Of a stretch of 64,000 nt of DNA, positions 27,973 through 61,601 are shown piece by piece. The stretch comes from Shewanella pealeana ATCC 700345. GTDB taxonomy: Bacteria > Pseudomonadota > Gammaproteobacteria > Enterobacterales > Shewanellaceae. The stretch covers positions 2,107,001 through 2,171,000 of the forward strand of contig NC_009901.1 of the NCBI RefSeq assembly GCF_000018285.1, read 5' to 3'. The notes below the pieces were generated by a model, which was not told the DNA's origin, searched no databases, and worked only from the letters and a program-made list of their open reading frames with translations. Positions within the stretch are counted from its first letter, which is position 1. Every line of letters begins with the position of its first letter. Position numbers and translations under genes: made by a program.

Positions 27973-29321
27973 ATAAAGCGCCGTTACAGATCTTAGTGGT
28001 GGAAGACGAGCCCGATCAACGAGAGTTAATTTGTCAAATACTTGCCTCGAATCAATATCAGATCACCAGCGCTGAAAGCGTTGAAGAGGCGATTTTATCA
28101 ATAAAGTCGAGTGTACCGGATCTGGTTTTTTCTGATTGGAAGCTTGGACAGTTAACAGGGATGGATCTGCTGACATACGTAAGACGAGAGCACCCCGATA
28201 TGGGATTTATTATCGCCACGGCTTACGGCACTATTACCCACGCGGTGGACGCCATGCAAGCAGGGGCAGATGATTACCTGTCAAAACCTTATCAACGTCA
28301 GTCGTTACTGATGGCTATAGATAAGGTCGCTAAATCGTTAACGTTAAAACAGCAAAATCGACGTCTAGCATCAGAGCTATCTCAGCAACAGGAGCTCGTG
28401 GGGCTAGTGGGTAAGGCGCCGTGTATGCAGAAGGTTTATGCTCGAGTACAAAGAGTGAGTGCCACCGACGCAACGGTGCTAATTGGCGGCGAGAGTGGCA
28501 CAGGTAAAGAGCTAGCGGCTCGGGCCTTATATCAATTATCGAGTCGTCAACATAAGCCGTTTGTCGCTATCAATTGCGGCGCCATTCCCGAAACTCTTGC
28601 GGAATCAGAGCTCTTTGGCGCAGAGAAAGGGGCATTTACTGGTGCCAATACGCTGAAAATCGGTAAGCTTGAGGCGGCTAATGGCGGTACTATCTTTCTC
28701 GATGAAATAGGCGAGTTACCTCTGTTACAGCAGACAAAGTTGCTCAGGTTTTTACAAGAAGGCGTGATTTCTAGGCTAGGGCAAAACGGTGAAATTAAGT
28801 TGGATGTTAGGGTCATTGCCGCGACCCACCGCAACCTTAAAGAGGAAGTCGAGAAGGGCAACTTTAGAGAAGATCTATTCTATAGGCTCAACGTGGTCCC
28901 CATCGATATGCCACCACTGAGAGAGCGCAAAGAAGATATTGGCCGGCTCATAGAGCATTTCTTAAAAATTCATGCAGGTCAGTATGGCGTCGAGGCAGTT
29001 AAGTTAAGTGCGGAAACCATGAAGTCTCTGCTCGATTATCCTTGGCCGGGCAATGTGCGAGAACTCTCTAATCGAGTTGAACGTTTCGTATTACTGGCAG
29101 ATGAGCAAGAGCTGGTGGCCGAACTGGCGTCAGGACTGGTCGCGATTAATCCGAGTCAGTTTGTGCTTCCTGAGGCGGGATTTGAGTGGGAAGCGTTTGA
29201 GAAAGACTGCTTACAGCAAGCGATGTCGCGCCATGAGGGGAATCGAACCCAAGCGGCAAAGCAGCTAGGCTTGAGTTATAAAGCGTTTTTGTATCGCTTA
29301 GAGAAGTATCAACTAGTGTAA
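27969..29321 (+). CDS. Sigma-54-dependent response regulator, NtrC family
   Basis: 450 aa. The receiver has acidic residues VEDEPD and probable phospho-acceptor Asp56. The AAA+ domain has Walker A GGESGTGK (173-180), the sigma-54 contact loop GAFTGA (221-226) and Walker B GTIFLDEIGEL. A Fis-type helix-turn-helix ends the protein (GNRTQAAKQLGLSYKAF). All features of an active enhancer-binding protein are intact. Its target should be the divergent sigma-54 promoter at 25908-25924. The gene start overlaps the kinase stop. Confidence 0.95.
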   Translation: MNKAPLQILVVEDEPDQRELICQILASNQYQITSAESVEEAILSIKSSVPDLVFSDWKLGQLTGMDLLTYVRREHPDMGFIIATAYGTITHAVDAMQAGADDYLSKPYQRQSLLMAIDKVAKSLTLKQQNRRLASELSQQQELVGLVGKAPCMQKVYARVQRVSATDATVLIGGESGTGKELAARALYQLSSRQHKPFVAINCGAIPETLAESELFGAEKGAFTGANTLKIGKLEAANGGTIFLDEIGELPLLQQTKLLRFLQEGVISRLGQNGEIKLDVRVIAATHRNLKEEVEKGNFREDLFYRLNVVPIDMPPLRERKEDIGRLIEHFLKIHAGQYGVEAVKLSAETMKSLLDYPWPGNVRELSNRVERFVLLADEQELVAELASGLVAINPSQFVLPEAGFEWEAFEKDCLQQAMSRHEGNRTQAAKQLGLSYKAFLYRLEKYQLV

Positions 29322-33309: not shown

Positions 33310-35472
33310 TTAACCTTCTAAGGTCGTGAACACCAGTTTATTTCGCCCAGCCTTTTTGGCTTGATATAGATTAATATCGGCTTGTTTAACCCACTGTTCC
33401 AGTGAGTCGCTATAAGTCCCGTTGCCAATCACAGCCCCTATGCTGGTCGTCACCTTAAATTGCTGCTTATCCTGCTGACTTTCGATGACAATATTATCGA
33501 GTTTTTTTCTAAAGCTTTCCAAATGATTCTCAATTTTTAAGGCATTACACAGCGGCATGATGAGTAAAAACTCTTCGCCGCCATATCGTACTATGATGTC
33601 TGAATCGCGCTTAAACTCTTGGCTTAGAAGCTCGGCGACTCGCTTAAGAGTGAGATCGCCGCCATCATGACCGTAGGTATCATTAATGAACTTGAACTTA
33701 TCAAGATCCAGCAGCGCAATTGCAATAATCTCATCGCTTCTTTTACATAGCTGCTGAATTCCAGGAAACTTATCTTCGGCATAACGGCGATTATATAACC
33801 CTGTAAGAGGGTCTTTTTCTGCCAGAGCTTTTAATTGACTGTTAGCGTGCTCAAGCTCCAAGGTCCGCACGGCGACTTTCTCTTCAAGCTCCAACTGATA
33901 ACCAATAAGCTGGCTTTTACTTTGCTTTAGGCGCTGAAAGAGGGTGTAAATTTCCTCCGGTGACTCTTCATCTACGGCATAATTCACATAGTTATTATCT
34001 GATTGAGTGCTGAATTTGTTGGCGATATTCTCAAGCGGCAGTGTGAGGCGGCGGCTAATAACACGTGAGATATAGATGGTGACAGACAATGCGACAAATA
34101 GAATGGCAAATGTTGCTAGGTACATACTTTCAACCAAATCAACTAGAGGCCGAAAAGGATTGAGTACAAATAGTTGCCAATCATTTTCTAATGTCACGCT
34201 TGCATAGACGTACTCTGGCGCCATCGTATCGCTATGGGAAATATTGAGCATTGGAAAGGGCGTTATATAATTTTTACTGGGTAGCGAGTAATTAAACTCA
34301 GATAGTGGAGTAATACCAAGGTTGTCAGTGGCGTATATGACTCTGCCATTTTTATCTATAAGCACAATGGACTGATTATTCTGATTGGTTTTGATGTTAT
34401 CTATCACCTTGAACTCTTTTAAATCTAACGAGCCTTCAATGATCCCTATTGGCTGGTGGGGCGTATCTGCTCGGTAAATGGGAGCACTTATTGCGACAAT
34501 CGGATCTTGGCCAAAGCCTTTGCCAAGAAATGCTGGAGAGATAAAGTTACGCTGGTTAATAAAGGCTTGTACAAAGTAATCCCTATCACGGATTGAGAGT
34601 TCTTTCCTTTGTGACTCGAGGCTTGAAAGTAACGACGCTGGACTTGCGCCTATGACAACACCTTGGCTATCGGCAAGGAGCATGGTGATAAACCCAGGAT
34701 AATTTTCATGTAAATGAGACAATAAAATTTGCTCTTCTGTCTCAGAGTGCTGATTTAAGCTGAGCCATGCTGCAGCGTTCTTAATCGCTTGGGTGTGTGA
34801 GTCAATATAGGCTTGAGTCGAGAGCCCTAAATGCGCTGCTGAGCTTTCTATATTGTGATAGAGCAAGGCCTGTTGGCGTTCGATAAATTGATTATTGAAC
34901 AATAATGCTGCCAAAAGCAGGGCGACGGTTATCACTAATGTAAAAGTGTAAGTCAGCTGGCCATTGAAAGTACGTCTCTGTCGGTCTTTTATCTTACTTT
35001 TGAAGTGCCAAAAAGAGGGCGTTAAGGTAATCATCAGCGAGCCTATGCAGGCATAGACCAAACCATTAATCCCTTGCTTTAGGATGATAAAGGCGATGTG
35101 ACTGCTGGGGAGATCGGTAAATAGAAAGATATAAAGATAAAAAAGTGGCATACCGATAAACAGCCAAAAACCAAAGCTTGCGTATAACGCGTAAATATCT
35201 TTTTTTCTGGCTAAACCTAAGAAGAGGGCTTCTACGCCGAATAAGAAGTAAACATGCGGGCTGTCCCAGGCGACCATTAGGCCCGTAACGGTAATCATAG
35301 CAGTATAGAGTGCATACCAAGGGCCAAGCAATACAGCGGCAATAACGTAGGAAACGTTGCCGAGGATCAGCTGTATGTTAGCAAATAGGTGTATAGGATA
35401 AAGGTTTACCAGTAAACCAATTAAGCCTAACACTGAGGCTAACAGGAGTTTATTCTTTTCTATTCTCTCCAA
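33310..35472 (-). CDS. Membrane diguanylate cyclase with dCache sensor
   Basis: 720 aa. Five or so N-terminal helices (residues 1-160) resemble the 5TM region of LytS-type receptors. Another helix at about 175-195 leads to a periplasmic dCache-like domain, then a helix near 440-460, a HAMP-like stretch and a short coiled coil. A C-terminal GGDEF domain follows (DPLTGLYNRR; active site RYGGEEF, intact), so it should make c-di-GMP. An RxxD-type inhibitory site is not evident. An FNR-like box lies 77 bases upstream. Confidence 0.92.
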   Translation of the reverse strand: MERIEKNKLLLASVLGLIGLLVNLYPIHLFANIQLILGNVSYVIAAVLLGPWYALYTAMITVTGLMVAWDSPHVYFLFGVEALFLGLARKKDIYALYASFGFWLFIGMPLFYLYIFLFTDLPSSHIAFIILKQGINGLVYACIGSLMITLTPSFWHFKSKIKDRQRRTFNGQLTYTFTLVITVALLLAALLFNNQFIERQQALLYHNIESSAAHLGLSTQAYIDSHTQAIKNAAAWLSLNQHSETEEQILLSHLHENYPGFITMLLADSQGVVIGASPASLLSSLESQRKELSIRDRDYFVQAFINQRNFISPAFLGKGFGQDPIVAISAPIYRADTPHQPIGIIEGSLDLKEFKVIDNIKTNQNNQSIVLIDKNGRVIYATDNLGITPLSEFNYSLPSKNYITPFPMLNISHSDTMAPEYVYASVTLENDWQLFVLNPFRPLVDLVESMYLATFAILFVALSVTIYISRVISRRLTLPLENIANKFSTQSDNNYVNYAVDEESPEEIYTLFQRLKQSKSQLIGYQLELEEKVAVRTLELEHANSQLKALAEKDPLTGLYNRRYAEDKFPGIQQLCKRSDEIIAIALLDLDKFKFINDTYGHDGGDLTLKRVAELLSQEFKRDSDIIVRYGGEEFLLIMPLCNALKIENHLESFRKKLDNIVIESQQDKQQFKVTTSIGAVIGNGTYSDSLEQWVKQADINLYQAKKAGRNKLVFTTLEG

Positions 35473-48633: not shown

Positions 48634-51600
48634 TTGAATAACGAAAATGTCACATTGGCATCGCATTCGGCTGCCAGTCTTTTGAAGCTATCAGCCACAA
48701 CATTATTGGCTTTTTCAGCCTTCACCTTTTCTACATTTTCTATTGCCGCTCCTGTAAGTGATGCTAGTTTTTCTAGCAGCCTGAGGAATAATAGCTCGGC
48801 CAGTCATGCCCATGGCTATGCTCAAGGTCATGCTAATGGCCGAAAAGCAAATCCTCATAAGCAACAAGCTGAAGAGCAGACCTTAGCTCTTGCCAGTCGT
48901 ATGGCTGAGTTTCGTCAAGCGAGTAAATCAAACAAGCAGCAGCTTAAACAAGAGCTGATGTCACAAGCTAGAGCGCGTCAGTCTCTGCTGGCTGAGCTGG
49001 TTAAAACCGATCCTGAAGCAGCTGTTCGTGCGGTATTACCTGAGTCAGCTAGAGCGGGTATGCCAAAAGATGTTTTGGCTATGCTAACGCAAAAGCGTGA
49101 GCTTACTGGTGAACTTGAACTGTCATATGTCGATTATGAGGATGCTAGTCAGAGTAAGCTGCGTCACTCGTTAATGACCGATAATGGCTCTGTAGAGCTA
49201 CATCTTCCTGAGGGAGTAAAGTTTGAACAACTTAAAACAGGCTCTCGCATCAAAGCTAAAGGCTGGATGTTTAAAGGGGCTAGTGCTGAGAAAACTCGAT
49301 CCAGTGCGTTAGTGCTTAACGATGAGAGTGATAGTTTAGCGCTTCTTGCTAGTACAAATACAATGAGCGTTTCAGCATCTAGCTTGCCTAATACAATAGG
49401 TGAGCAACGCACATTGGTCGTGCTGATTAACTTCCAAAACAATACCAATCAGCCTTGGACTGTAGAGGAAGCGAAAGAGCTCGTCTTCGGTACAGTCAAT
49501 GACTTTTATCAAGAGGCCTCATATGGGCAAACTTGGCTAAGCGGTGATGTGCTAGGTTATTTGACTTTACCGATTGATGCGACATGTAGAACTAATGATA
49601 TAGATAATTATGGTCGTCAGGCGGTAATCGATAGTGGCATTGACGTTTCTGACTATGACCGCTGGGTTTACATCTATCCTGAAAATACGGATTGTGGCTG
49701 GACTGGGCAAGGGACAATCGGTGGCAGTCCATCGCGCGCCTTCATTAATGGCTCAATGACGTTACGTACCGTTGGCCATGAACTAGGGCATAACTTTGGT
49801 TTGCATCATGCGAAGGATTATGACTGTTCAGAAGGTGTATTAACGGGCCGCTGCATGTCATTTGAGTATGGCGACACCATGGACATTATGGGGAAATCCG
49901 AGGTAACGGGTCATTTCAATGCGTTTAGCAAGCAGCAACTTGGCTGGATCACCTCATCAGCAGGTGAAGTTATCACTGCTGAAAATGATGGAAGTTATCA
50001 ACTTGAGCCTTATGAAACTTTACCAGCAGGTAAAGCGAAAGGAATAAAAGTAAGGCGTGGAACCGATTCCGATACCGGCTTACCTCTGTGGTATTACCTT
50101 GAGTATCGTCAGGCGATAGGCTTCGATGATTTTCTTGCGGGTAAAAATGGTATTACCGACGGTGTGGTATTGCACCTTGCAACGGAAAACGATATGCAGA
50201 GCAATCTGCTCATCGATATGACACCAAACAGCGGTATTTATGATTTCGATGATGCTGCTTTACTGGCGGGAACTAGCTATACCGATCCTGATGCAGGTGT
50301 AACTATCACCACTGAATGGGCCGATGCTTCGGGGGCGAGTATCAATGTTAGCTATTCAGGTTTGAGCTGTGTTAAGGCTAACCCTAGCTTGTCATTATTA
50401 CCTAATGAAAGTGCATGGGTAGAGGCGGGGGAGACTGTTAGCTACCAAGCGACAGTAACCAACAACGACAGTGAGGGCTGTGCAACATCGGGGTATGAGC
50501 TTACAGCACTGGTACCTAGTGGCTGGGCAGCGACACAAGACAATCTCAGCTTGGCGCCAGGGGCGAGCAGTACAGTAAGCTTGAATGTGACCTCGGCTGA
50601 TACCGCTACGGATGGTTTCTACGATATCGCCATAACTGCGGTTGACACTAGCGACAGCGAGTACGCTCAGACAGGCATCGTCAGCTATGTTGTTGACTCG
50701 CCAGCGGAGGCCTGCGTAATGGCAAGCCCAAGATTTGTCTTGTCGGTCGATAACAGTGGTGAACTGGCTGCGGGAGAGGTTGCAACTTATAGTGGAACCC
50801 TAACTAGCCAAGATAGCAGTAGCTGTTCAAGCAGTAATTTTGATGTGACTGCGAATGTACCTGCTGGTTGGAGTGCTGATACCCTTGGCGTGAGTTTAGC
50901 CCCGGGTCAGAGCCAAGTTATTAGCTTAAATGTAGAGTCATCTATTGATGCACAGGATGGCACCTATGATTTCGACCTTAATGCCCAGAATCGTGCCGAT
51001 AGCCGTTATATGGGTCATGATATCGCAAGTTATAGGGTTAAGAGTCCACTACCTACTTGTACATTAGCCGCACCTTCGATTGTGATTTCTAATCCTCAGG
51101 GGGCTGAAGTTATCGCTGGGACGCAGGTGAGTTACAGTGCGACAGTGACTAGCCAAGATAGTGAGGCGTGTTCAGAGGCTGTATTTGATGTGTTTGCCGA
51201 TGTGCCGAGTGGTTGGAGCGCGAGTCGGGCACAGGTGACGTTAGCACCGGGAGCTAGTACTAAAGTCAATATTAGTGTGACATCGGATACAGAAGCCGAG
51301 GCTGGATCATTTAACATTGGCATTAATGCTCAAAATGCGAGTGAAACTGCGTATTTAGGTAAAACCAGTGTGAGCTATACGGTTAAGTCTGCTCCTAATA
51401 CGGCGCCTGTGGCGGTAAATGATAGCGTGACTATGTCATCTAAAACATCTGTGGTTATCGATGTGCTAGCAAATGACAGGGATGCTGAGAATGATGAACT
51501 GACCATTGTTTCTGTGAGTCAGGGGGCAAAAGGAAGCGTACAGATAAACGGAAATGGCCAAGTGGTATATTCACCAGCCAAAAGTTTTAAAAGCAGCGAT

Positions 51601-51717
51601 AGCTTCAGTTACACCATTAGTGACGGTGATAAGACCGCTACTGCAACGGTTAGTCTAAGCTTAAGTGGCTCAGGTGGCGGCGGAAATGGTAACGGCCATG
51701 GTAACGGTAAAAAATAG
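48634..51717 (+). CDS. Secreted M11-like metalloprotease with repeat domains
   Basis: 1027 aa from a TTG start (AGGGG upstream). A long signal region ends near SIAAPVS. A propeptide-like part (to about 240) precedes the protease domain with the zinc motif HELGHNFGLHH (His382, Glu383, His386, His392) and a Met-turn region GDTMDIMG, as in gametolysin-type M11 peptidases. Three NEW3-like beta repeats of about 105 residues follow (about 585-910), each with two conserved cysteines, then an Ig/cadherin-like domain (925-1010) and a Gly-Asn-rich tail. No GlyGly-CTERM helix. Secreted and probably surface or matrix degrading. Confidence 0.88.
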   Translation: MNNENVTLASHSAASLLKLSATTLLAFSAFTFSTFSIAAPVSDASFSSSLRNNSSASHAHGYAQGHANGRKANPHKQQAEEQTLALASRMAEFRQASKSNKQQLKQELMSQARARQSLLAELVKTDPEAAVRAVLPESARAGMPKDVLAMLTQKRELTGELELSYVDYEDASQSKLRHSLMTDNGSVELHLPEGVKFEQLKTGSRIKAKGWMFKGASAEKTRSSALVLNDESDSLALLASTNTMSVSASSLPNTIGEQRTLVVLINFQNNTNQPWTVEEAKELVFGTVNDFYQEASYGQTWLSGDVLGYLTLPIDATCRTNDIDNYGRQAVIDSGIDVSDYDRWVYIYPENTDCGWTGQGTIGGSPSRAFINGSMTLRTVGHELGHNFGLHHAKDYDCSEGVLTGRCMSFEYGDTMDIMGKSEVTGHFNAFSKQQLGWITSSAGEVITAENDGSYQLEPYETLPAGKAKGIKVRRGTDSDTGLPLWYYLEYRQAIGFDDFLAGKNGITDGVVLHLATENDMQSNLLIDMTPNSGIYDFDDAALLAGTSYTDPDAGVTITTEWADASGASINVSYSGLSCVKANPSLSLLPNESAWVEAGETVSYQATVTNNDSEGCATSGYELTALVPSGWAATQDNLSLAPGASSTVSLNVTSADTATDGFYDIAITAVDTSDSEYAQTGIVSYVVDSPAEACVMASPRFVLSVDNSGELAAGEVATYSGTLTSQDSSSCSSSNFDVTANVPAGWSADTLGVSLAPGQSQVISLNVESSIDAQDGTYDFDLNAQNRADSRYMGHDIASYRVKSPLPTCTLAAPSIVISNPQGAEVIAGTQVSYSATVTSQDSEACSEAVFDVFADVPSGWSASRAQVTLAPGASTKVNISVTSDTEAEAGSFNIGINAQNASETAYLGKTSVSYTVKSAPNTAPVAVNDSVTMSSKTSVVIDVLANDRDAENDELTIVSVSQGAKGSVQINGNGQVVYSPAKSFKSSDSFSYTISDGDKTATATVSLSLSGSGGGGNGNGHGNGKK

Positions 51718-51769: not shown

Positions 51770-51801
51770 AAGAGGGCGACGGTATATACCGTCGCCCTCT
51801 T
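51770..51801. terminator. Perfect 32-bp palindrome between convergent genes
   Basis: Two 16-base arms without spacer (centre GGTATATACC) form a perfect palindrome rich in GGGCGAC. It lies 52 bases after the metalloprotease stop and 55 bases beyond the end of the minus-strand surface protein. T-runs are short (CTT); it likely works as a bidirectional terminator. Confidence 0.65.
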
Positions 51802-51856: not shown

Positions 51857-54196
51857 TTACTCAACTGTATTAACTTCAACAGCCACGCCATTGACAATCG
51901 GCGTACCTTCATCATCTTCTACCACAGCGACAACTCCGTCGACTCCAGCAGATAGGAAGGATATTGGGTCTGTGTTTTCCACACCAGGTGTGAGCTCAAT
52001 CGTAAAGGCACAGGTATAGTTTTCACTACCTGAACCGCTATAACCAAGTACCGTACCTATAACACAAGGTGAGTATGCCACGCCTGCATGCTCTCCACTG
52101 GCCGCATTGAGGATCATAAACTCAGCGTGTGGATTGTTATGGGCAACTGTTACACCCTTCACAGTGAGTTCTGTTAAGGTCACATTCTCGACACCGGCAT
52201 TAGTTAGCTCTAACACCACTAGCATACTGGTTGCGAACGCCATATCGGTATCAGGGGCTTGCGGTGTAAAGGTCACAGTTGCATCATTGGATGCATCGAC
52301 ATTTTGGCCGTCTTCATCGACACCTCTAATGGTGGCGATATTGGTATGAGTATCACCCGCATTACCCTGTAATCCTTTGGTGATATCACAGCTTGCGTAC
52401 TCGCCAGGCTCTAATATAAAGCCGTTAAGTGCAGTCGGAGAGATAGGATTACCATTTTTACTGTCGACCGTACATTGGCCTGTAAGAATGCCGAATTTAT
52501 CATCGGTCAGAGTGGTGAAGCTTACATCATCGACACCGGACGAATTGACGCTAAAGGTAAAGTTATAACTAACATTACTGTAGTTAGTTGGATCGTCACC
52601 GGTCTCTAGCACCTCTGTTGGAGTTGCAGTCTTAACTAGTGTGATTGACGATGGTACATCACGGATATCGACCATTGCCGAGTCATTACCTGTGGCCTGA
52701 TCATTTTCATCATCGATCGCAGTCGCGGACACTGTATTGGAGTGCAGATCGCCAGCATCACCAGCAATAAACTTAGTGAACTTACAGGTATAAGTGCCAC
52801 CGAGCGCGATACTTGTAGAAATACCTGTACACTCATCGGTGAGGAGATTACCAAAGTCGGTATCATTTAGCACTGTGAGAGCTAGAGGTGAGTCCCAGAA
52901 CGCCGCATCATTGTCGACCGTAACGGTAAACTCAACATTTGCTCCAGGCTCTAATACTTCCGTAGGGTTTGCCGTCTTGGTCACGGTAATAGCGGGTGGT
53001 AGGTTAGTGATCTGCACTGTGATCTCGTTACTACAGTGATCGCCTGCAATACTATTAACGGCCGCACAGCTATCACCATCAACGACAGCATCACCGTTCT
53101 TATCTATTAGTGCTAGCTTGACGAGGTCATCATAAAACTGCGGACTCTGATCATTAGGCAAGTCTCTGTCAACAATATGTACCGTGAAGGCACAACTGTA
53201 GGAGCCGCTTGGTAATATCTCACCACCGTTAGCAGGCATTGAACAGTTTGTCGCGGTCATGTACACGCCATCTACATTAGGGTTAACAGCGACAGGACTG
53301 CCCCAAAGATTGATAGAGGTATCGAAACCACCTTCTCCGCCGATATCAATCTCATCACTTAGTGACGTGATAAACAGTGAGGTTTGTGGATTGGGGTTGG
53401 TAAAGCTTACGGTATAGCTAAATGTTCCACCGGGCTCACTACGTGAGGATTGGCTGGTTAGGGCTTTTACCACGGTAGGCGGGGTAGGCTTGATAAATAC
53501 ATCAATATTAAAGGTGTCACAGTTACATTTTGATTTGTTATTAGGGATCTGACCCGCGTAAGGGTCTTCTTCATAGGTACAATTGCTGCGTTCGATATTA
53601 TCCCAGGCCGCACAGTAGGTGAAGTCGGCTTGATTGTTGCCATCGGCGTCAGTACACAACATGGTGATTGGCTCGTTGGTGAGCACATATTCATCAGGGC
53701 CTAAGGCCTTAGTGATATCACCACATTGGTCGCCGTCTAGCTGAACATCGGCTGTCTGAGTGCTGTCACCTGGGATAGGTAAGATCATGCTACAGTTACG
53801 AAGACCTTGACCTTGTACAACCTGTGGGCTTTGCTCGGTCAAAGGCAGATAGAAAGTGGTGTCCCAACGTTCATTCGCGTTAGTTCGCACTGTCACATCG
53901 GCATTGAAGGTGAACACTTGTCCTAGGTTACACTCGGCGTTAGGGTCAGTAGGAGTAACTCTCGTGATCTCGACGTCATTCGCGGTACAGTTTAATGCGT
54001 CCTGAGCAAGTTTATTACCCGCTTTCATCAGGTAGGCGTCGGCCATACAGAATTTCGTGGGGTCTTCGCTCATGCCGAGCCAGTCATAGGCCGCAGCATT
54101 TGCTGTGCTTAGACTCGTCACCCCATAGAGGGTCGTTGAGCTTATGAGCGCAATACCTAGTGCGCCAATAAGTTGTTTGCATTTAAATCGTTTCAT
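51857..54196 (-). CDS. Large Cys-rich exported protein with DUF11-like repeats
   Basis: About 779 aa from ATG 54196 (the frame opens at 54271, but the signal peptide MKRFKCKQLIGALGIALISS begins at 54196). The N-terminal 200 residues are rich in cysteine (about a dozen). Then come at least four DUF11/NEW3-like units, recognisable by the VKTATPTEVLE, VTKTANPTEVLEPG and VKALTSQSSRSEPGG starts and repeated TLTD segments. There is no LPXTG, PEP-CTERM or membrane helix at the C-terminus, so it is released or bound by other means. Upstream are a sigma-54-type promoter and an operator shared with the gene at 57510. The many cysteines fit with the DsbA-like lipoprotein encoded behind it. Confidence 0.8.
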   Translation of the reverse strand: MKRFKCKQLIGALGIALISSTTLYGVTSLSTANAAAYDWLGMSEDPTKFCMADAYLMKAGNKLAQDALNCTANDVEITRVTPTDPNAECNLGQVFTFNADVTVRTNANERWDTTFYLPLTEQSPQVVQGQGLRNCSMILPIPGDSTQTADVQLDGDQCGDITKALGPDEYVLTNEPITMLCTDADGNNQADFTYCAAWDNIERSNCTYEEDPYAGQIPNNKSKCNCDTFNIDVFIKPTPPTVVKALTSQSSRSEPGGTFSYTVSFTNPNPQTSLFITSLSDEIDIGGEGGFDTSINLWGSPVAVNPNVDGVYMTATNCSMPANGGEILPSGSYSCAFTVHIVDRDLPNDQSPQFYDDLVKLALIDKNGDAVVDGDSCAAVNSIAGDHCSNEITVQITNLPPAITVTKTANPTEVLEPGANVEFTVTVDNDAAFWDSPLALTVLNDTDFGNLLTDECTGISTSIALGGTYTCKFTKFIAGDAGDLHSNTVSATAIDDENDQATGNDSAMVDIRDVPSSITLVKTATPTEVLETGDDPTNYSNVSYNFTFSVNSSGVDDVSFTTLTDDKFGILTGQCTVDSKNGNPISPTALNGFILEPGEYASCDITKGLQGNAGDTHTNIATIRGVDEDGQNVDASNDATVTFTPQAPDTDMAFATSMLVVLELTNAGVENVTLTELTVKGVTVAHNNPHAEFMILNAASGEHAGVAYSPCVIGTVLGYSGSGSENYTCAFTIELTPGVENTDPISFLSAGVDGVVAVVEDDEGTPIVNGVAVEVNTVE

Positions 54197-54414
54197 AATA
54201 TTTACCATCATAATTAAGTGAATATGGATAAAACGTGCTTGGTTTTGGTCAATTATTTCCAATAAAAACATTACTTTTTGTGTGTCAAAGTTTGACGTAA
54301 CACCATCGTCACGTCACAGTCGGAGCTTTGCCGATAAGACTGATTACCTAACTGAATAGAGCGCTAGCTATTTACTTCAGAAAGGGCGAATTCAAACTTA
54401 TGCTAAGAGAGTAA

Positions 54415-54430
54415 GCAAGCCCTAAGCCAT
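54415..54430 (-). promoter_or_regulatory. Putative sigma-54 promoter of the Cys-rich surface protein gene
   Basis: On the minus strand ATGGCTTAGGGCTTGCTT shows TGGC and TTGCT with exact GG-N10-GC spacing (GG at 54428-54427, GC at 54416-54415). It departs from consensus at the AC of TGGCAC. The transcript would start near 54403, with a leader of about 205 bases. The operator at 54493-54510 lies about 100 bases upstream, the usual distance for an enhancer. Confidence 0.6.
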
Positions 54431-54492
54431 AACCGTATGTTAATGAATTCATTGGTAAATACTTGGGTTTTCATTGTTTTCTTGGAAGGATA

Positions 54493-54510
54493 TGTTTCAG
54501 GGGTGAAACA
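54493..54510. promoter_or_regulatory. Palindromic operator, copy 1 (TGTTTCA-N4-TGAAACA)
   Basis: A perfect 7-bp inverted repeat with spacer GGGG. A near-identical sequence occurs at 59987-60004 in front of the second large exported protein, and a weaker one at 60078-60095. I take these as binding sites for the enhancer-binding protein encoded at 55881. Confidence 0.6.
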
Positions 54511-54616
54511 GGAATAATTAGGGCGTGGGTTTAACTGATTGTTTGTATGAGAGTTCTTTTGTAATAGTGTTCAACTTGAGGCTGTAACGCCTGTTACACT
54601 TGGTGCAACTCTTTAC

Positions 54617-54650
54617 TGAACTCTGAACTCTGAACTCTGAACTCTGAACT
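54617..54650. repeat. Heptanucleotide tandem repeat (TGAACTC, 4.9 copies)
   Basis: Almost five perfect copies of the 7-mer TGAACTC in the intergenic region between the DsbA-like gene and the operator of the Cys-rich protein gene. Heptamer repeats are prone to slippage; since it is non-coding it could only change spacing. Confidence 0.9.
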
Positions 54651-54820
54651 TAGTACTCGGCCTCTAAGAATAAGTGTGTTTAATAATGGAAAACCAGATC
54701 TAAATATTGCTTAGCAAATCATAAGTTGAACTTACTAACTGATTTAATTTAATAAGCTGTTTCCAGCAAGTAATGGCAAGATATATTGCGGTAAAACAGG
54801 TGTTTAAATACAGGATTTAA

Positions 54821-54889
54821 AGATGGGCAGTTAAAGATGGGCAGTTAAAGGGGGATAGTTAAAGGGGGATAGTTAAAGATGGCATTTAA
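54821..54889. repeat. 14-mer tandem repeat, five copies
   Basis: Five units related to AGATGGGCAGTTAA: two identical, two of the variant AGGGGGATAGTTAA, and a degenerate last one. It lies in the same 850-base non-coding stretch (54197-55046), whose other contents are the sigma-54-type promoter, operator and heptamer repeat. I see no gene in this stretch. Confidence 0.85.
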
Positions 54890-55046
54890 AGCCCTTGTCT
54901 AGCCAAAGGGGCTATCACGGGGAAGGAGTTATTATCAGAAAGGAGCTGTGGCTCCATACTGGTATCATGAGTTCTAAGCTGGAGTTGTAGAGTCTCGCGA
55001 TGTATTCACGGACTTTTCACGGACTATTCATGGGCTATATAGCTTA

Positions 55047-55838
55047 TTAGTCACTTTTCTGGGGATTTGCGAGTAGCTCATCGATCAATAACGCGAAAGT
55101 TTGATAGCTCTGAGCGCCGACAACCAGTTTGGGTGAGATTAATTGACCGTTTTCGACCCTACCAATCACGAAACTTGGCGTTCCTCGGATCCCTAAAGAG
55201 GATCCATAGGCCACATCTTGATCAACCTTACTGGAGACTGTTTCATCGATAAGGCAATCTGCAAACATAGTCATGTCTAGCGATAAGTTACTGGCCGTTT
55301 GTTGATACAGTGCATCATCGAGTTGCTGCATATTCTTGAACAGTGAGTCACGCATCGGCCAGTATGCATTTTGTTGTAGGCTGCAGTTTGCGGCAATGGC
55401 GGCGCCTTTAGCTTTAGGGTGGAAGCCCAGTGGAAAGTCGCGAGTGAGATACTGAATCTTGCCTGTATCAATATAATTTGATTTTAACTTGGTGAATGTT
55501 TGATCGATAAAACGTTTGCAGTAAGGGCACTGGTAGTCTGAAAACTCGATAATTGCCAGTTGAGCTGCGGTGTCACCCAGCAAGGGCAGTCTTCCATCGT
55601 CATTAAAGTTTGTTTGGGTGGGGAGGGTTTTATACTGCGGCTTTTGAGATCTCATCGCAATGGTATGAATATCTTTAACTTGGTTCCCAATCGTAACCAT
55701 ATCGCTTTTCAGCTGTGTGATCTCCTGCTTGAGGGAGGTTATCTCTTGTTGTAACTGGGCATCATTTTGTGGCTGACAGCCTGTGATAAACAGTGGTGTC
55801 AGCATTAACGCTATAAACAGGCGCTTATATATTAACAT
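55047..55838 (-). CDS. DsbA-like thioredoxin-fold lipoprotein
   Basis: 263 aa. An N-terminal signal with lipobox LFITGC (Cys near residue 21) is followed by a coiled coil (residues about 26-60) and a DsbA/Thioredoxin_4 domain with the redox site CPYC (FSDYQCPYCKRF near residue 105) and the cis-Pro loop RGTPSFVIG. It should be an outer- or inner-membrane-anchored oxidoreductase or isomerase in the periplasm. It follows the sigma-54 regulator gene by 42 bases and lies between two genes for large Cys-containing exported proteins, its likely clients. Confidence 0.88.
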   Translation of the reverse strand: MLIYKRLFIALMLTPLFITGCQPQNDAQLQQEITSLKQEITQLKSDMVTIGNQVKDIHTIAMRSQKPQYKTLPTQTNFNDDGRLPLLGDTAAQLAIIEFSDYQCPYCKRFIDQTFTKLKSNYIDTGKIQYLTRDFPLGFHPKAKGAAIAANCSLQQNAYWPMRDSLFKNMQQLDDALYQQTASNLSLDMTMFADCLIDETVSSKVDQDVAYGSSLGIRGTPSFVIGRVENGQLISPKLVVGAQSYQTFALLIDELLANPQKSD

Positions 55839-55880
55839 TGTGGGGTCCTCGACTATTCAAGTGGATTCGAACAGCCATCG

Positions 55881-57251
55881 CTAGAGTTTAATTTTGCATT
55901 TCTTGATCAGACGATAGAAGGTGGTTCTGGAGATCTTGAGCTCGCGCGCCGCAGCCGAAATATTGTGGTTATTGCGTTTGATGGCATCGAGTAGTAGCTC
56001 GGTATCGATCACCACCCTATGCTGAGCTAAGTCAACCACATCGTGTTCATCCGGGTTAATATTGGTGATTTTGATCCCTAAATCCGCTGCAGTTAATTGA
56101 TCGCTACTCGCCATGATAATGGCTCTATGTATGCGGTTCTTGAGTTCCCTCACATTGCCAGGCCATTCATAATCGAGCATGGTATCCAGTGCTTTTGGGG
56201 TCAGGGTGTATTTGTGATGTTCGGGACTGAACAGATTAAGGTACTCATTCGCGAGCAGCGGAATGTCCTCTTTATGCTGCCTAAGACTCGGTGCGTGTAG
56301 GTGCAGTATATTGATGCGATAATAGAGATCTTCACGAAAGCGCCCCTCTTCGACAGCGGTTTCAAGATTAACATGGGAAGCGAAGATTATTCGACAATCA
56401 ATGGCTATGTTCCTGCTGCCGCCGAGGCGCTCGATAATATGCTCTTCGAGAAATTGTAGCAGGTTCACTTGAGACTCTAATGTAAGATCACCTATCTCAT
56501 CTAAAAACAGGGTACCTTTATTGGCTCTTTCTATATGGCCTATGTATTGTTTGTCGGCGCCAGTAAAGGCGCCTTTTTCGTGGCCAAAGAGTTCAGAGTG
56601 GATCAAGCTTTGAGGTAAGGCTCCACAGTTGATAGTGATGAAGGGACCAATTTTTCGCCTTGACTGATTATGAATTAAATGTGCACACAGTCCTTTACCC
56701 GTACCGGTTTCGCCACTGATCAGCACGGCCTCATCTGATGTGGCTACTTTGGTTATGTTGCTTCTTAAATTGTTGATGGAACGAGAGTCACCCAATAATG
56801 GTGTTTTTTGGCCGAACTCAGTGCAACCCTTTTGCTCTTTCTGTTTTAACAGTGCCATGCCATAAGCATGCCCAAGAGTCTGGTTAAGATGGTTCCAGTC
56901 GACGGGAAGGTGGTGATAGTCGGTAAAATAGTAGGGTAGGCGAGAAGTGAACTTTACATCTACTGCGTCGATATCGATTAATACGGCTACCCAGATAATG
57001 TTCTGTTGACGCTGATTGAGCTCATTGATACAACTTAGAACCTGATGCTGAATTCCTTTGGATATGACTGCTACAGCAACCTGAAAATTGTATGCTTGCG
57101 CTGCCTTTTTCGCACAGGAAAGTGTATCGGCGACAATGCAGTGCCAACGAAACGGTTTGAGTTCTTTATCATAGCCAAAAAACTCACCAGCAAGGTCAAG
57201 CACAAGGAGTTCTCTACAAGCAATGGGCCTCTTATTTTTAAATTTATTCAC
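55881..57251 (-). CDS. Sigma-54 enhancer-binding protein, VpsR-like architecture
   Basis: 456 aa. The N-terminal domain (about 1-140) looks like a receiver fold that has lost its acidic pocket and phospho-acceptor (AVAVISKG where Asp is expected). The AAA+ domain has Walker A GETGTGKG (180-187), a complete sigma-54 contact loop GAFTGA (227-232) and Walker [13 protein letters not shown] Fis-type helix-turn-helix ends the chain ([18 protein letters not shown]). The plan recalls VpsR of Vibrio, a biofilm regulator that responds to c-di-GMP; that is resemblance only. By position it should drive the two flanking surface protein genes, which share an operator and sigma-54-type promoters. Confidence 0.9.
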
Positions 57252-57509
57252 GGTTCTCCTTTAGAGAAACTCTGTGTCGGCGCCCTCAATGGCTAACTAT
57301 CGATGTTTAAATTTTAGGTAGGATCTGGCGGAACGCAAGTCGAAAGGTAGGTAAAAATGTCGTATTGTTGACGTTTGGTGATATTTTGACGTTGCGTGTG
57401 TCGATGTTGGCTTTGAATCAGATTTTATCTTAGTTCCACCAGATTTAAGCTGAGGTAGAAGTGAAGCTCATCCCTGAGCTAGGTTTAGGTATTTTACCAA
57501 TTGCTGGTA

Positions 57510-59825
57510 TTAATATGCGACGGGCAGTGCTGGGCACTGACTAGGATTGCTTGGTACGTACTTAACTCCGTTTCCATCGGCAACTTTCATGTTATTAAAG
57601 GTATCTAACAAGGTTTTGTAGTGATTTTGCGCTGCGGCATCTGTACCTTGCCACGCAGCGATTGCAGCAGAAACGATATCTGCGGTAGACATAGTGCCTC
57701 CACCTGGCATCATTAACACGGCGTCACCACCGAGGCGATACTCAATATTGAACAAAAATGCCAGTAATTGCTGAGCGAGCTGCTCTCTTGGATCGCCGCC
57801 GCCATTGCTATCAATCAAGAAATGAGACACCTCGGCCTTGACCGTACCGGCACCTGCAGAGATCCCGTCAGTGACTTTGTCATTCTTGTAAGCGGGATCG
57901 ACTAAAGTACCATTAGTGAACATGCCATCAAATGGCTCATCACCTTTACCGAAATAGCTAGTCTCACTGTCATAAGGATCTAATGTATTGATATAACTTG
58001 TGACAAAGGCTGTCTCCATTTCGCCTAAGCCATTCTTGTTATGCCAATAACCTTTAGTACCGAAACTCGCTTCGTTGAAGCAGATATTGGTGAATACCAC
58101 ATCACCGAGAGGGTCGCTGCTATTGTCTAGATAGGCATTACCCATAATAGGTGGTTGCCTACCATCGGGGCCGCTGGCCTCGGAGCGCACATCAAACTCA
58201 ATGGTGATACTTGATGTCGCCATCCAGCCTTGCGCTGTTGCTTCCTCTACTTGATAGTAGTCTGATGGATACTGAGTAAGCGGTGCATCACCATAACCGT
58301 TTGGTAATAGTACGCCAAAGGTCATCTCACCGTTGGCATCGGTCATTCGATTTGCATAACCGTTTTCTAGGATCGGGTCTGCAGTGAGTCCAAAACGTGC
58401 AACCACTTCGGCATACACATCACTATTTACTGTGCTACTAATTGTATCGGGGACTGGTCCACCATTGGATTCCAACAAACTTGGGGCATATTTTAATCTA
58501 ACAGGCCAGTTGGCTAGCCCAACTTCGTTACCATCTTGGATACCGTTATTGTTAGTATCGAAGATTTTTTTCACTTTAATATTGGCAAAACCCACCTGAC
58601 TTAAGGTGATAGTAATTTGCGGGTCACTACTGACCAAAGGCTCAACACCTAAGGCTGCAGGTATAAAGTCAGAGAACTCATTACTGGTATGAGGCGCTAA
58701 ACCATCATCAAACAGGTCTGGACAAGGCATTTCCATGACAAAGCGCTGAATAAAGTCATTAGCGTCGTCGCCATCCCAAAGATTAGGGTCCTCGGGGCCG
58801 GTATTGAGTGAACTGAAAGCCTGGTAGTCATGAACATAGCCAGAAGTGGTGAAATACTGACTGTTAAGGTTTTTGTCTTGATCTTCGGTCCATCTGAAGT
58901 GGTCTAAAGACCAGATATCATTTAACTGGCCTAGAGCTTCTTTGAGCAAAATAGTGGTTGGATCGCCACTTGACTCATCATTGGTATTATCGGCATTACG
59001 GACATTTAAACCATCTTCGATACCATATTGCCATTGCCAGATAAACTTCTCGCCTAGGTCTAAACGGCAGTTTAAGTTGGCGTCGTGATAGTTACGTAGT
59101 GCAATAATACCAAACTGCGGTTTTTTCTCTTTTACCTTAAAATTATCGGTCTTGGCGAAACGAGGAATAAAGCCGTGGAAGTTTCCTGCTTGATAACCCT
59201 CTTGGTTAGGCTGATTCGCAGCTCCCATACCGCCACCGTCATCAAACTCATTAATGGGATCATAATCACCAACAGGTGTTATCCATGCTTTATAAACGCC
59301 ACCATTATTGGGTGTATCGTCATAGGGGTAGAGTTGAATAACCATGGCATGCAGGGGATCGCCGCCGTGATCTATATCGGAATTAAATTCGTGAACCGCC
59401 ATGGTTTTGTTACCATTGGTCGGGTATTCAGTACAGGAAACTGCTTGCCAAACGCCTTTTTGTTTGACGTAGTTTGTTCCGCCCGCACCTGGGTACTCGG
59501 TGATGACACCATTTTCGATTTTAATCTCACGGCAACTAATATGGTCTCTAGAGAGTAGATCTTTACCGCTGGGATCGGTAACTTGGAAGTAGTAATTGCC
59601 ATCAGGAAGTGCTGCGGCAGAAGCCGGAGCATTCATTCTCGGTCCACCATCAAGATAGACTTCGAGTTTACTGCCATATCTCACATTCTCATTAACTATG
59701 CCACCGTCGTCAGTGGTCGTGAAAATTGCACCCGATAGAGCGTTAGCCCCTATCGGCAGCCCTGCAAGGACAAGCGCTGCGAACATAGGTAAGACTGAGA
59801 ATCGAGGTTTACTGCGAATATTCAT
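57510..59825 (-). CDS. Large exported protein with SdrD B-like domain
   Basis: About 771 aa from ATG 59825 (GAGGTG upstream; the frame opens six codons earlier). The signal peptide ends near GANA. A middle region (residues about 420-560) has the SdrD/Cna-B signature IKVKKIFDTNNNGIQDGNE followed by a beta-sandwich and GYANRMTDANGEMTFGVL. The C-terminal 190 residues start at TKGYWHNKNGLGEME and look like a separate helical domain. Several paired cysteines occur. No LPXTG or PEP-CTERM is seen. I recognise no whole-protein family. It shares operator and promoter style with the gene at 51857, so both probably act together, perhaps in an extracellular matrix. Confidence 0.8.
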   Translation of the reverse strand: MNIRSKPRFSVLPMFAALVLAGLPIGANALSGAIFTTTDDGGIVNENVRYGSKLEVYLDGGPRMNAPASAAALPDGNYYFQVTDPSGKDLLSRDHISCREIKIENGVITEYPGAGGTNYVKQKGVWQAVSCTEYPTNGNKTMAVHEFNSDIDHGGDPLHAMVIQLYPYDDTPNNGGVYKAWITPVGDYDPINEFDDGGGMGAANQPNQEGYQAGNFHGFIPRFAKTDNFKVKEKKPQFGIIALRNYHDANLNCRLDLGEKFIWQWQYGIEDGLNVRNADNTNDESSGDPTTILLKEALGQLNDIWSLDHFRWTEDQDKNLNSQYFTTSGYVHDYQAFSSLNTGPEDPNLWDGDDANDFIQRFVMEMPCPDLFDDGLAPHTSNEFSDFIPAALGVEPLVSSDPQITITLSQVGFANIKVKKIFDTNNNGIQDGNEVGLANWPVRLKYAPSLLESNGGPVPDTISSTVNSDVYAEVVARFGLTADPILENGYANRMTDANGEMTFGVLLPNGYGDAPLTQYPSDYYQVEEATAQGWMATSSITIEFDVRSEASGPDGRQPPIMGNAYLDNSSDPLGDVVFTNICFNEASFGTKGYWHNKNGLGEMETAFVTSYINTLDPYDSETSYFGKGDEPFDGMFTNGTLVDPAYKNDKVTDGISAGAGTVKAEVSHFLIDSNGGGDPREQLAQQLLAFLFNIEYRLGGDAVLMMPGGGTMSTADIVSAAIAAWQGTDAAAQNHYKTLLDTFNNMKVADGNGVKYVPSNPSQCPALPVAY

Positions 59826-59865
59826 AATAGACACCTCATTCATCGCATTGTTTGTACAGATTTAA

Positions 59866-59882
59866 TACATATATGGTGCCAA
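59866..59882 (-). promoter_or_regulatory. Putative sigma-54 promoter of the SdrD-like protein gene
   Basis: On the minus strand TTGGCACCATATATGTA has a perfect -24 element (TTGGCAC) and, at the correct N10 spacing, GT instead of GC at -12. The start would be near 59855, about 30 bases before the ATG at 59825. Confidence 0.55.
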
Positions 59883-59974
59883 TAATTTATTTGATATTAT
59901 TCAAATGGTTATGTTTTTCTTGGATGAGGGAGTGTAACAGGTAGAAGTTGTTTTGATTTATCTTGATTTTTTTC

Positions 59975-60016
59975 AGTTACTTAAACTGTTTCATAAGTGG
60001 AACAGTTTAAGTAACT
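59975..60016. promoter_or_regulatory. Palindromic operator, copy 2, inside a 16-bp-arm inverted repeat
   Basis: AGTTACTTAAACTGTT (59975-59990) and its exact reverse complement (60001-60016) flank a 10-nt spacer. The core at 59987-60004, TGTTTCA-TAAG-TGGAACA, matches the operator at 54493-54510 with one change in the right half. The centre lies about 140 bases upstream of the predicted sigma-54 start site, a typical enhancer position. Confidence 0.65.
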
Positions 60017-60077
60017 AAGAGGTATTTGGATTTTGATGTTAGCAAAGTACAGGGTAAGTGATGTGGTATTATATTCA

Positions 60078-60095
60078 TGATTATAGGGTGAAACA
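60078..60095. promoter_or_regulatory. Possible third operator half-site
   Basis: TGATTAT-AGGG-TGAAACA keeps the right half TGAAACA and the GGG spacer of copy 1, but only about four of seven bases of the left half. It lies some 230 bases upstream of the predicted start of the SdrD-like gene and could be a second, weaker site. Confidence 0.35.
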
Positions 60096-60161: not shown

Positions 60162-61601
60162 TCAGTAATAAAAAACGGCTAATTCATAAAGTTCAGCGTT
60201 ATCGTCATATGATTCATACTTTGCTTGTATAGTGAACTTCTCTGTCTCAATATCAACCTGTTCAAAATTATCTATCGCATCACTGAAATAGGCTAGCATT
60301 CCTTGCTTATCAAGAGGGAGTTTCATGGCATTTATTGACTTGATAAAGGCACTTTCACTAGCATTTGCGAATAGAGGCTCTGTTAACTTTATTTCTTCAA
60401 GCTGCTGATGATTAAATCTCAATAAAATATGATTCCCGACTAACCACCAAGCGTTATCGTCACTGGCAATATTGATTTTAATGGCTAGAGGAACTTGGCT
60501 TGTTAGCTCATCTAATGTGAGAAGAGAGGGGGCGCTAAGTGATAGGCGTTTAAATAGCCATTCTTGTTGTGATGCAGTCAAACTTGCGGGCTTATCGACC
60601 TTAAATGAGGTGTTTATTTGGCTTAGTGTGAAATGCGTTAGCAAGTGTTCTGGCTCAGACGCCATCTCAGGATGAAATGTTTCAAACTCAAGAAGTAAGT
60701 TTTGTTGATTATCTTTAACAAGCAGCTGATTCCTCTTTGCGTTAACTTGTTTTGATGCGAGTGCCAATTTTACTTGGTTAATATCGCTTTTTTGAGCTGA
60801 TACTCCCTCAATTCTCCAATGAGTATCATCAAAGCCTTCTCTGAACCCAATAGTGTTAAGTCCCGTGCTGTTTAACAAATCAAGTTTGGTGCTGACTATT
60901 TCCAGTTTATTTTGGGTAAATAAGTACCAAAGGTTTCTGCCGTAGCCAAGAACAAGCTGGTTCCGCTCTAATTTGATTTCAATACTAGCAGGGCCAAGTG
61001 TCTTAACGACATCTTGTATAGTGCTTCCAAGCTTTAGGCTGTAAACAGCTTCAGAAACAGAGACATTTGCTGGTGGAAGCGCAATTTTTTGAGCCAGTTG
61101 GTAAGGGGAGGGAGACGATAATTCATCTACATCGAATGTATACTCGTATGAAAGCTTGTGTACCTTGTAGCCTTCAGCGTTATAAGGTGCAGCTATCGTT
61201 GAAAGGGCCTTATTGTCTACACACATTTTAAAAGCTTGAGCTTGGATATGAGTGTTGAGCGTTTTGCGTACGTATTCATCTGATGCCGGTTTAAATCTGC
61301 TGCTATAGTTTGTCACCCTATGGTTAACATGAGTGATAATAACCGCATCAGCTCCATTCCCAATAGCCTTTTGACTAAGTTGTGCCACAGCGAGCGATAA
61401 GGACTTCTCCTGCGGGTTACCCTCTTGGTCTAACATTTCAAGATCTTCTGTTTTTAGGCTAATGACACCTAAATCTTTTTCGATACAGCTGGGTTTATGA
61501 TTAAAAATAACTTTATTAGGTACTGCATTTGCTTGTGTTAATGGTAGGAGTAAGCCGCCAAAAATTATAGTGCTTAACTTGGTTATTAATTGCATTTCCA
61601 T
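60162..61601 (-). CDS. Exported protein of unknown function
   Basis: 479 aa with a signal peptide (cleavage near TQANA, residue 26) and two cysteines (Cys38 and one near 127) that may pair. The first 130 residues contain a GNGADAVIITHVNHRV segment that recalls small envelope-stress or metal-binding folds; the remainder, about 350 residues, has two similar parts with KLGSTIQDVVKTLGPAS and DDTHWRIEG-type strands. I recognise no family. It is a single gene on the minus strand, upstream of the surface region. A1 AAGGAA precedes the ATG by 12 bases. Confidence 0.7.
   Translation of the reverse strand: MEMQLITKLSTIIFGGLLLPLTQANAVPNKVIFNHKPSCIEKDLGVISLKTEDLEMLDQEGNPQEKSLSLAVAQLSQKAIGNGADAVIITHVNHRVTNYSSRFKPASDEYVRKTLNTHIQAQAFKMCVDNKALSTIAAPYNAEGYKVHKLSYEYTFDVDELSSPSPYQLAQKIALPPANVSVSEAVYSLKLGSTIQDVVKTLGPASIEIKLERNQLVLGYGRNLWYLFTQNKLEIVSTKLDLLNSTGLNTIGFREGFDDTHWRIEGVSAQKSDINQVKLALASKQVNAKRNQLLVKDNQQNLLLEFETFHPEMASEPEHLLTHFTLSQINTSFKVDKPASLTASQQEWLFKRLSLSAPSLLTLDELTSQVPLAIKINIASDDNAWWLVGNHILLRFNHQQLEEIKLTEPLFANASESAFIKSINAMKLPLDKQGMLAYFSDAIDNFEQVDIETEKFTIQAKYESYDDNAELYELAVFYY

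Follow-up and report, generated by a model that had tools for sequence, protein, structure and literature searches.

A probable small sigma-54 regulon for two exported proteins, with an exchangeable cargo cassette, in Shewanella pealeana

What controls the two large exported proteins whose genes flank a sigma-54 activator gene in Shewanella pealeana ATCC 700345, and what might they be for? The locus lies in a 64,000-base stretch (positions 2107001–2171000 of a single 5,174,581-base contig), here called the window, of a species that PMC3107185 and PMC2100407 place in the accessory nidamental gland of squid. Our analysis points with good confidence to a small dedicated sigma-54 regulon, composed of an activator, its own operator, and two exported-protein targets (cargo 1 and cargo 2). 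The circuit is strongly supported by sequence comparison; binding, activation, the signal, a surface role of the cargo, and roles of a protease and a lipoprotein are what we infer, with strength falling in the order surface or matrix role, protease pairing, lipoprotein role.

The minus strand carries, from right to left, the genes for the "GYW" protein, the activator, a DsbA-like lipoprotein, and the DUF11-like cargo, whereas a plus-strand gene for an M11 metalloprotease converges on the last of these. All four minus-strand genes are present where the original prediction, drawn from this one window, had put two exported proteins, a GAFTGA activator, and a DsbA-like lipoprotein; it had included neither the protease nor the exchange of cargo between species described below. 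The features are as follows.

51857..54196, minus strand: cargo 1, a 779-residue exported protein with a string of Ig-like domains (DUF11/DUF7507-like) and 21 cysteines; homologue in 30 of 152 family genomes (E ≤ 1e-10)
54414..54429, minus strand: predicted sigma-54 −24/−12 box of cargo 1, TGGCTTAGGGCTTGCT, GG-N10-GC; weight-matrix score 12.1
54493..54510, no strand assigned: operator 1, TGTTTCA-CCCC-TGAAACA (perfect palindrome); start-to-start distance to the downstream box 81 bp
55047..55838, minus strand: DsbA-like (Thioredoxin_4) lipoprotein, separated by 42 bp from the activator gene upstream; no target as judged by operator
55881..57251, minus strand: sigma-54 enhancer-binding activator, 456 residues, with VpsR-type N-domain, AAA+ domain with GAFTGA, and Fis-type HTH
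57510..59825, minus strand: cargo 2, a 771-residue exported "GYW" protein with an SdrD B/CnaB-like domain (residues 411–584) and a TKGYWHNKNG C-domain
59866..59881, minus strand: predicted sigma-54 box of cargo 2, TGGCACCATATATGTA, GG-N10-GT; weight-matrix score 9.8
59987..60004, no strand assigned: operator 2, TGTTCCA-CTTA-TGAAACA on the gene's strand, with one asymmetry, part of a longer inverted repeat; start-to-start distance to the downstream box 123 bp
48634..51717, plus strand: exported M11 (gametolysin-type) metalloprotease, convergent with cargo 1, start codon uncertain; Peptidase_M11 3.6e-11

Operators and predicted sigma-54 boxes

The exact pattern TGTTTCA-N4-TGRAACA, predicted originally upstream of both exported-protein genes, is found at two sites in the whole 5.17-Mb genome, and these are the predicted ones (54493–54510 and 59987–60004). 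Each operator is followed by a sigma-54 box, 81 and 123 bp away, which agrees with the predicted "about 100 and 140" if those distances are measured to the expected start site. Scored with a weight matrix based on the sigma-54 consensus, the box of cargo 1 reaches a value found at 4 of 127970 window positions and that of cargo 2 a value found at 22 of 127970. The genome also contains rpoN.

We counted a cargo upstream as positive if a box scoring at least 8.5 lay 55–170 bp from an operator that departed from TGTNNCA-N4-TGNNACA at no more than one position and had 4 or more of its 7 arm pairs. The count covers distinct upstreams of Shewanella loci plus two Ferrimonas-like ones (L263 and L264); L031, L193–L199, L254–L262, and the Vibrionaceae loci stand outside it. 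Operator and box occur together in 48 of 53 cargo upstreams, with a consensus refined on the same loci, against 0 of 96 neighbor genes (39 activator, 25 lipoprotein, 5 protease, 24 acrB-type, and 3 lpxK-type). By cargo type, the fractions are 23/25 for DUF11-type, 11/11 for GYW, and 14/17 for ELDGN-type, a third exported family that fills the same slot in other species. A box score of at least 8.5 was reached by 52 of 53 cargo upstreams and 13 of 96 neighbor genes.

Stricter composite patterns were run over 38 genomes. The DUF11/ELDGN pattern gave 14 matches in 14 genomes, all at promoters of DUF11 (12) or ELDGN (2) genes, with 2 in the backward control; the GYW pattern gave 7 matches in 7 genomes, all at GYW promoters, with none in the backward control. 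In five genomes GYW lies on another contig than the activator (G022, G035, G036, G124, and G127), and all five copies have an operator-like palindrome 121–148 bp before the box, with one mismatch each in the first three. These unlinked operators argue for regulation in trans.

Operator-to-box spacings fall mostly at 69–71, 79–82, 90–92, 121–124, and 146–148 bp, the first three groups being about one helical turn apart. The palindrome arms vary together: three pairs are changed on both sides (8 cells), a cell count reached by none of 500 shuffles, in a set of 29 self-chosen operators, most of them palindrome-filtered, so that the paired-cell percentage is biased; slid versions reach 0.095 against the score of 0.113. 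Of 52 promoters, 28 have an IHF-like motif with at most one mismatch 17–19 bp ahead of the box; the motif occurs without mismatch in 13/52 and with at most one in 36/52, against 0.6% and 13% of mononucleotide shuffles, an excess that may partly reflect AT-rich promoter sequence.

Six one-mismatch operators elsewhere in the genome were considered as further targets and rejected, there being no box 40–220 bp downstream on either strand (best score 6.6). The protease, lipoprotein, and activator genes were also rejected as targets, with neither operator nor box in the window (best box scores 3.2, 1.5, and −0.2, respectively). No operator with box precedes these genes in relatives either, where only 5 protease upstreams passed the filter of a match starting within the first 60 residues. 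The lipoprotein, named alongside the regulon in the original prediction, drops out as an operator-controlled gene, its own operator and box being found in 0 of 25 distinct upstreams.

Two further features of these upstream regions were seen. Operator 2 forms part of a near-perfect inverted repeat whose arms measure ∼19 bases (59972–60018, AGTTACTTAAACTGTT...). The predicted leader of cargo 1 (54197–54413) spans ∼200 bases, of which the final ∼45 ahead of the ATG are well conserved in most of the aligned DUF11 loci, a hint at post-transcriptional control.

The activator and its linkage to cargo

The activator qualifies as a sigma-54 enhancer-binding protein by its Sigma54_activat (PF00158, 7e-66) and HTH_8 (PF02954, 8.5e-9) domains and its intact GAFTGA motif; 26 of 32 aligned activators keep the motif, and the other six have GSFTGA or GAFTDA. 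Its N-domain matches VpsR (PF20161) at 29.8 bits, above the cut-off of 23.7. Inspection by eye of the 28 aligned activators with an N-domain showed no conserved phospho-acceptor aspartate at the end of the strand where one is expected. On this feature the activator does not classify as a phosphorylated response regulator. Sequence relatives with known structures include ZraR, FleQ, and VpsR.

VpsR of Vibrio cholerae (PF20161; structures 7v2b and others) shares the VpsR-type N-domain, the AAA+ domain, and the Fis-type HTH. It acts on sigma-70 promoters and governs matrix genes including rbmA. The activator of S. pealeana differs in that it keeps GAFTGA and its targets have predicted sigma-54 boxes, whereas V. 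cholerae VpsR is said in PMC3162934 to lack GAFTGA.

Activator and cargo also travel together. Among 152 family genomes, the activator (E ≤ 1e-95) was found in 40, DUF11-like cargo (E ≤ 1e-10) in 30, ELDGN in 17, and GYW homologues in 13. At least one cargo family is present in 40 of 40 activator-bearing genomes and in 7 of the 112 others (Fisher 7.7e-30, in a test that treats genomes as independent, which they are not). In 38 of the 40, cargo and activator are no more than 10 kb apart (DUF11 24/24, ELDGN 15/16, and GYW 7/12). The seven cargo-only genomes include G010 and G016, with a more divergent activator nearby, and G046, with the activator in two frames; the remaining four (G002, G003, G004, and G012) have Ferrimonas-like DUF11 copies without a recognizable operator, and G003 also has a GYW copy. 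With the conserved and specific operators, this co-occurrence supports the proposal of one sigma-54 activator for both exported proteins.

Activator genes split over two frames, possible pseudogenes or assembly errors, were seen at L265:6004–7016 and L178:6021–7357, with an open cargo frame nearby.

Outside the family, an activator was found nearby at 5 of nine DUF11-type loci from other families of the order. G287 and G249, of one genus, each unite activator, lipoprotein, protease, and cargo; G261, G285, and G392, of another single genus, combine DUF11-type cargo, ELDGN-type cargo, and activator, and in G285 both cargo genes have near-identical operators 159 bp ahead of their boxes. At Vibrionaceae GYW loci a sigma-54 activator adjoins GYW in 8 of 8, with 43–52% identity over AAA+/HTH. 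Such activators often share as much, so identity alone does not prove orthology. A GTTACA-N3-TGTAAC-like repeat precedes the box by 98–114 bp in 7 of these 8; the exception is Photobacterium, whose activator has a similar N-domain below the VpsR cut-off. Of 78 distinct loci listed, 19 were examined for the circuit (Shewanella, Ferrimonas, and Vibrionaceae); the other 59, many from other phyla, were left out.

Several observations weigh against a dedicated regulon or against its wider reach. When up to two mismatches are allowed, the pattern is no rarity in the window, where it matches 4 times against a mean of 1.26 and a count of 4 is attained by 9 of 100 shuffles, and the one-mismatch operator is not specific genome-wide (28 of 30 genomes; backward controls 0–4 per strand). 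Because the window shuffle is weak and the one-mismatch pattern common, the argument relies on the exact match across the genome and on the comparative tests. Five of the 53 cargo upstreams fail the rule, and swap-shuffled cargo upstreams, a simple and weak control, pass it in 62 of 1060 cases. The strict patterns are insensitive, recovering 14 and 7 of 38 genomes and missing many promoters that pass the looser test. At L193–L199, seven loci from other genera of the family that include four Ferrimonas-like DUF11 copies (30–37% identical) without detected activator and the GYW copy of G003, no operator is in place. Four of the nine out-of-family loci lack an activator in the stretch examined (G407, G382, G245, and G428, the stretches of G407 and G382, but not those of the other two, ending at contig ends), although G407 and G382 hold lipoprotein and cargo; G287, G249, G382, and G245 gave no operator by the filter used. 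All four aligned Vibrio activators lack the N-domain, and the repeats there are differently spaced. The circuit is thus patchier outside Shewanella, with differing operators, and its common descent as a whole with that of Vibrio is not proven. Given the conservation in relatives, a chance origin of the operators appears very unlikely.

Cargo, protease and lipoprotein

Comparison of cargo types between species indicates that the regulator is retained while cargo and protease are swapped together as a cassette. The activators of G073 and G030 are 95% identical and their lipoproteins 84%, yet their cargo is DUF11 and ELDGN, respectively, and their proteases are only 34% identical over 433 residues. 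In 16 hand-picked pairs from 18 genomes, protease identity is 47–99% where the cargo type is the same (9 pairs) and 31–35% where it differs (7 pairs), so that the M11 type follows the cargo type between species. G099 holds both cassettes in tandem behind one activator (DUF11 + M11 and ELDGN + M11; L179:18–11862), each cargo with its own convergent protease. On an activator tree of 42 rows, without G055 and G046, 7 changes are needed for the DUF11 label and 8 for the ELDGN label, and starred branches force both. G107 and G123, which have a divergent DUF11-type protein, showed neither lipoprotein nor protease alongside.

The protease belongs to Peptidase M11 by its PF05548 match (43.1 bits against a cut-off of 21) and, by eye, the zinc motif HELGHNFGLHH (HExxHxxGxxH), both in common with gametolysin. 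It differs from gametolysin in being bacterial, in carrying NPCBM_assoc/Big_9 repeats and a Gly/Lys-rich tail, and in being paired with a cargo type.

Export of both cargo proteins was judged by eye from their N termini. Neither has a Pfam or NCBIfam match over cut-off (SdrD_B stays below it for cargo 2), and a PDB sequence search with both cargo profiles gave nothing at E ≤ 0.1. Nor did we find an LPXTG anchor by eye or a characterized homologue. The structure models of both (pLDDT 88.5 for cargo 1) contain Ig/CnaB domains, resembling adhesins and scaffolds. The RbmA scaffold, CnaB/SdrD-type adhesins, and pilins have in common with the cargo tandem Ig-like or CnaB domains in an exported protein; cargo 1 differs from RbmA in being much longer and Cys-rich and in showing no sequence similarity in the PDB search. 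Of the 21 cysteines of DUF11-type cargo, 19 are invariant or nearly so in 61 sequences.

The lipoprotein is DsbA-like by its Thioredoxin_4 domain (PF13462, 2.5e-27) and, by eye, a CPYC motif and a lipobox-like FITGC. Because it has no operator or box of its own and lies 42 bp behind the activator gene, it is probably co-transcribed with the activator as a passenger of that gene. The original suggestion that it folds the cargo stands as a possibility in view of the near-invariant cysteines: it may form cargo disulfides. It is not required, since the gene was not found at 11 of 17 ELDGN-type loci, where two more have only a 27%-identical match, nor at G107 and G123; ELDGN cargo has 14–19 cysteines in the four counted loci in which no lipoprotein was found.

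Some neighboring features complete the picture of the window. Between the convergent protease and cargo-1 genes lies a GC-rich hairpin (51770–51801), probably a two-way terminator, with a sub-threshold Rfam CsrC match on both strands; the Rfam scan gave sub-threshold matches only, which we take as chance or terminator-like. Short tandem repeats (CTGAACT..., GGGCAGTTAAAG...) were seen by eye at 54620–54890, between the lipoprotein gene and the cargo-1 promoter. Adjoining GYW, 60162–61601 encodes a 479-residue protein without family match, diverged homologues of which lie near the activator in genomes without linked GYW (L167, L168, and L171). No plasmid match was found for GYW. Farther off are an adjacent histidine kinase and NtrC-family sigma-54 response regulator (26239–29321; TIGR01818 426.7 bits, below cut-off) and a diguanylate cyclase (33310–35472; GGDEF 1.5e-45).

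Proposed mechanism, rival explanations, and known systems

In the mechanism we propose, the VpsR-type activator would bind TGTNNCA-N4-TGNNACA as an enhancer, set ∼63 or ∼105 bp (from its near end) upstream of the −24/−12 box, and would contact RNA polymerase–sigma-54 by DNA looping; roughly half of the boxes inspected have an IHF-like site shortly upstream. The GAFTGA loop and ATPase would then open the promoter, in S. pealeana driving only the two exported proteins. As its N-domain lacks the usual phospho-acceptor, the activator is probably set by a ligand (cyclic di-GMP being the obvious candidate from VpsR), by a partner protein, or by its own level. The exported Ig/CnaB chains would most likely be surface or matrix scaffold or adhesion proteins. 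The convergent M11 protease would probably serve to trim its cognate cargo or set it free, and the lipoprotein adjoining the activator may help to form cargo disulfides.

The closest regulatory analogue is the PEP-CTERM/PrsK-PrsR regulon. PMC1569441 (Haft 2006) describes a sigma-54 activator of Fis type and an enhancer motif that a spacer averaging ∼63 nt separates from a −24/−12 box; these sites occupy long intergenic regions, frequently ahead of single genes whose exported products are linked to exopolysaccharide or flocs. PMC9850573 gives its RpoN-dependent pepA as a floc-forming protein. That our locus is a divergent member of this regulon is suggested by the same enhancer-spacer-box logic (PMC1569441) and by the activator's best NCBIfam match, PEP_resp_reg (TIGR02915, PrsR). 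That match reaches 354.2 bits against a cut-off of 502.6, however; the genome has no exosortase match (PF09721, E ≤ 0.001) and 29 PrsK matches (TIGR02916), none over cut-off (best 90.6 of 300 bits); and no C-terminal sorting signal appears on the cargo among Pfam/NCBIfam matches or by eye. Moreover, the operator here is TGTNNCA-N4-TGNNACA and not the 17-nt motif ending in TTTACA given in that text, the receiver lacks a phospho-acceptor, and the only two targets adjoin the activator, with cargo exchanged together with protease. Membership in the PEP-CTERM system was rejected on activator, exosortase, and PrsK, and we regard it as extremely improbable. The claim that no system of this composition had been described was therefore nearly right: PrsR has the same logic with other parts. 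In the open-licence literature searched, we found no description of this locus.

Two other explanations would deprive the boxes or operators of their function. The activator could work on sigma-70 promoters, as VpsR of V. cholerae does, or as a repressor, the boxes being coincidental. Its N-domain, the absence of GAFTGA reported for VpsR in PMC3162934, and the GSFTGA or GAFTDA variants of 6 of 32 relatives are in keeping with such a mode, but the motif is intact in S. pealeana and in 26 of 32, and the excess of boxes at cargo upstreams over neighbor genes makes it highly unlikely. Inheritance of the locus as one genomic island, with sites conserved through kinship and without functional regulation, would account for the many loci that occupy one slot between acrB-type and lpxK/msbA-type genes and for the 80–95% identity of the nearest relatives' proteins. 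We nevertheless consider it very unlikely: in the aligned part of the DUF11 upstreams examined, well-conserved columns are largely confined to the operator, a tCA...TA element, the GG of the box, and the final bases ahead of the ATG, and the unlinked GYW operators, the same operator type at two cargo genes of G285 in another family, and the symmetric arm changes also speak against it.

The regulon may also be real and its cargo neither matrix nor adhesive, but fit for another secreted or surface task (interaction with host or alga, a phage decoy, or a protease substrate), with a nutritional protease. M11 is named after gametolysin, an algal wall protease. Given the regulon, we hold this to be a substantial possibility, in keeping with the missing anchor, sorting signal, and characterized homologue and with the squid-gland origin of the species (PMC2100407). 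The Ig/CnaB domains in both models, typical of surface fibers and scaffolds, argue against it, as does the floc-forming protein of the closest analogue (PMC9850573). The original suggestion of matrix or adhesion is favored by predicted folds, and by these only, and it is itself weakened in that the structure matches to RbmA and pilins are single-domain or tied with integrins and transglutaminases. Given the circuit, we judge a surface or matrix role of the cargo to be evenly poised.

Beyond the dedicated regulon, a broader proposal is offered tentatively, and we think it rather unlikely to hold in full: an unnamed Gram-negative surface-protein system, in which the constant part is a VpsR relative working with sigma-54 and its "expression slot", a Cys-rich Ig-chain scaffold and its M11 release protease fill that slot and are exchanged between species as a cassette, GYW-like scaffolds join in trans by gaining the operator, and V. 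cholerae VpsR/RbmA is a sigma-70 descendant.

For Shewanella, the analysis brings three exported families mostly labeled hypothetical (DUF11-like, GYW, and ELDGN) under one regulator and one promoter code and assigns them a likely partner protease; other marine Gammaproteobacteria show related arrangements. Because the strict code is specific (21 of 21 composite matches in 38 genomes), regulon members should be readable from sequence within Shewanella. The locus is a compact natural experiment in which the regulator is kept and the output swapped, and it would provide a sigma-54 relative for studying how VpsR-type regulators work and how they have changed.

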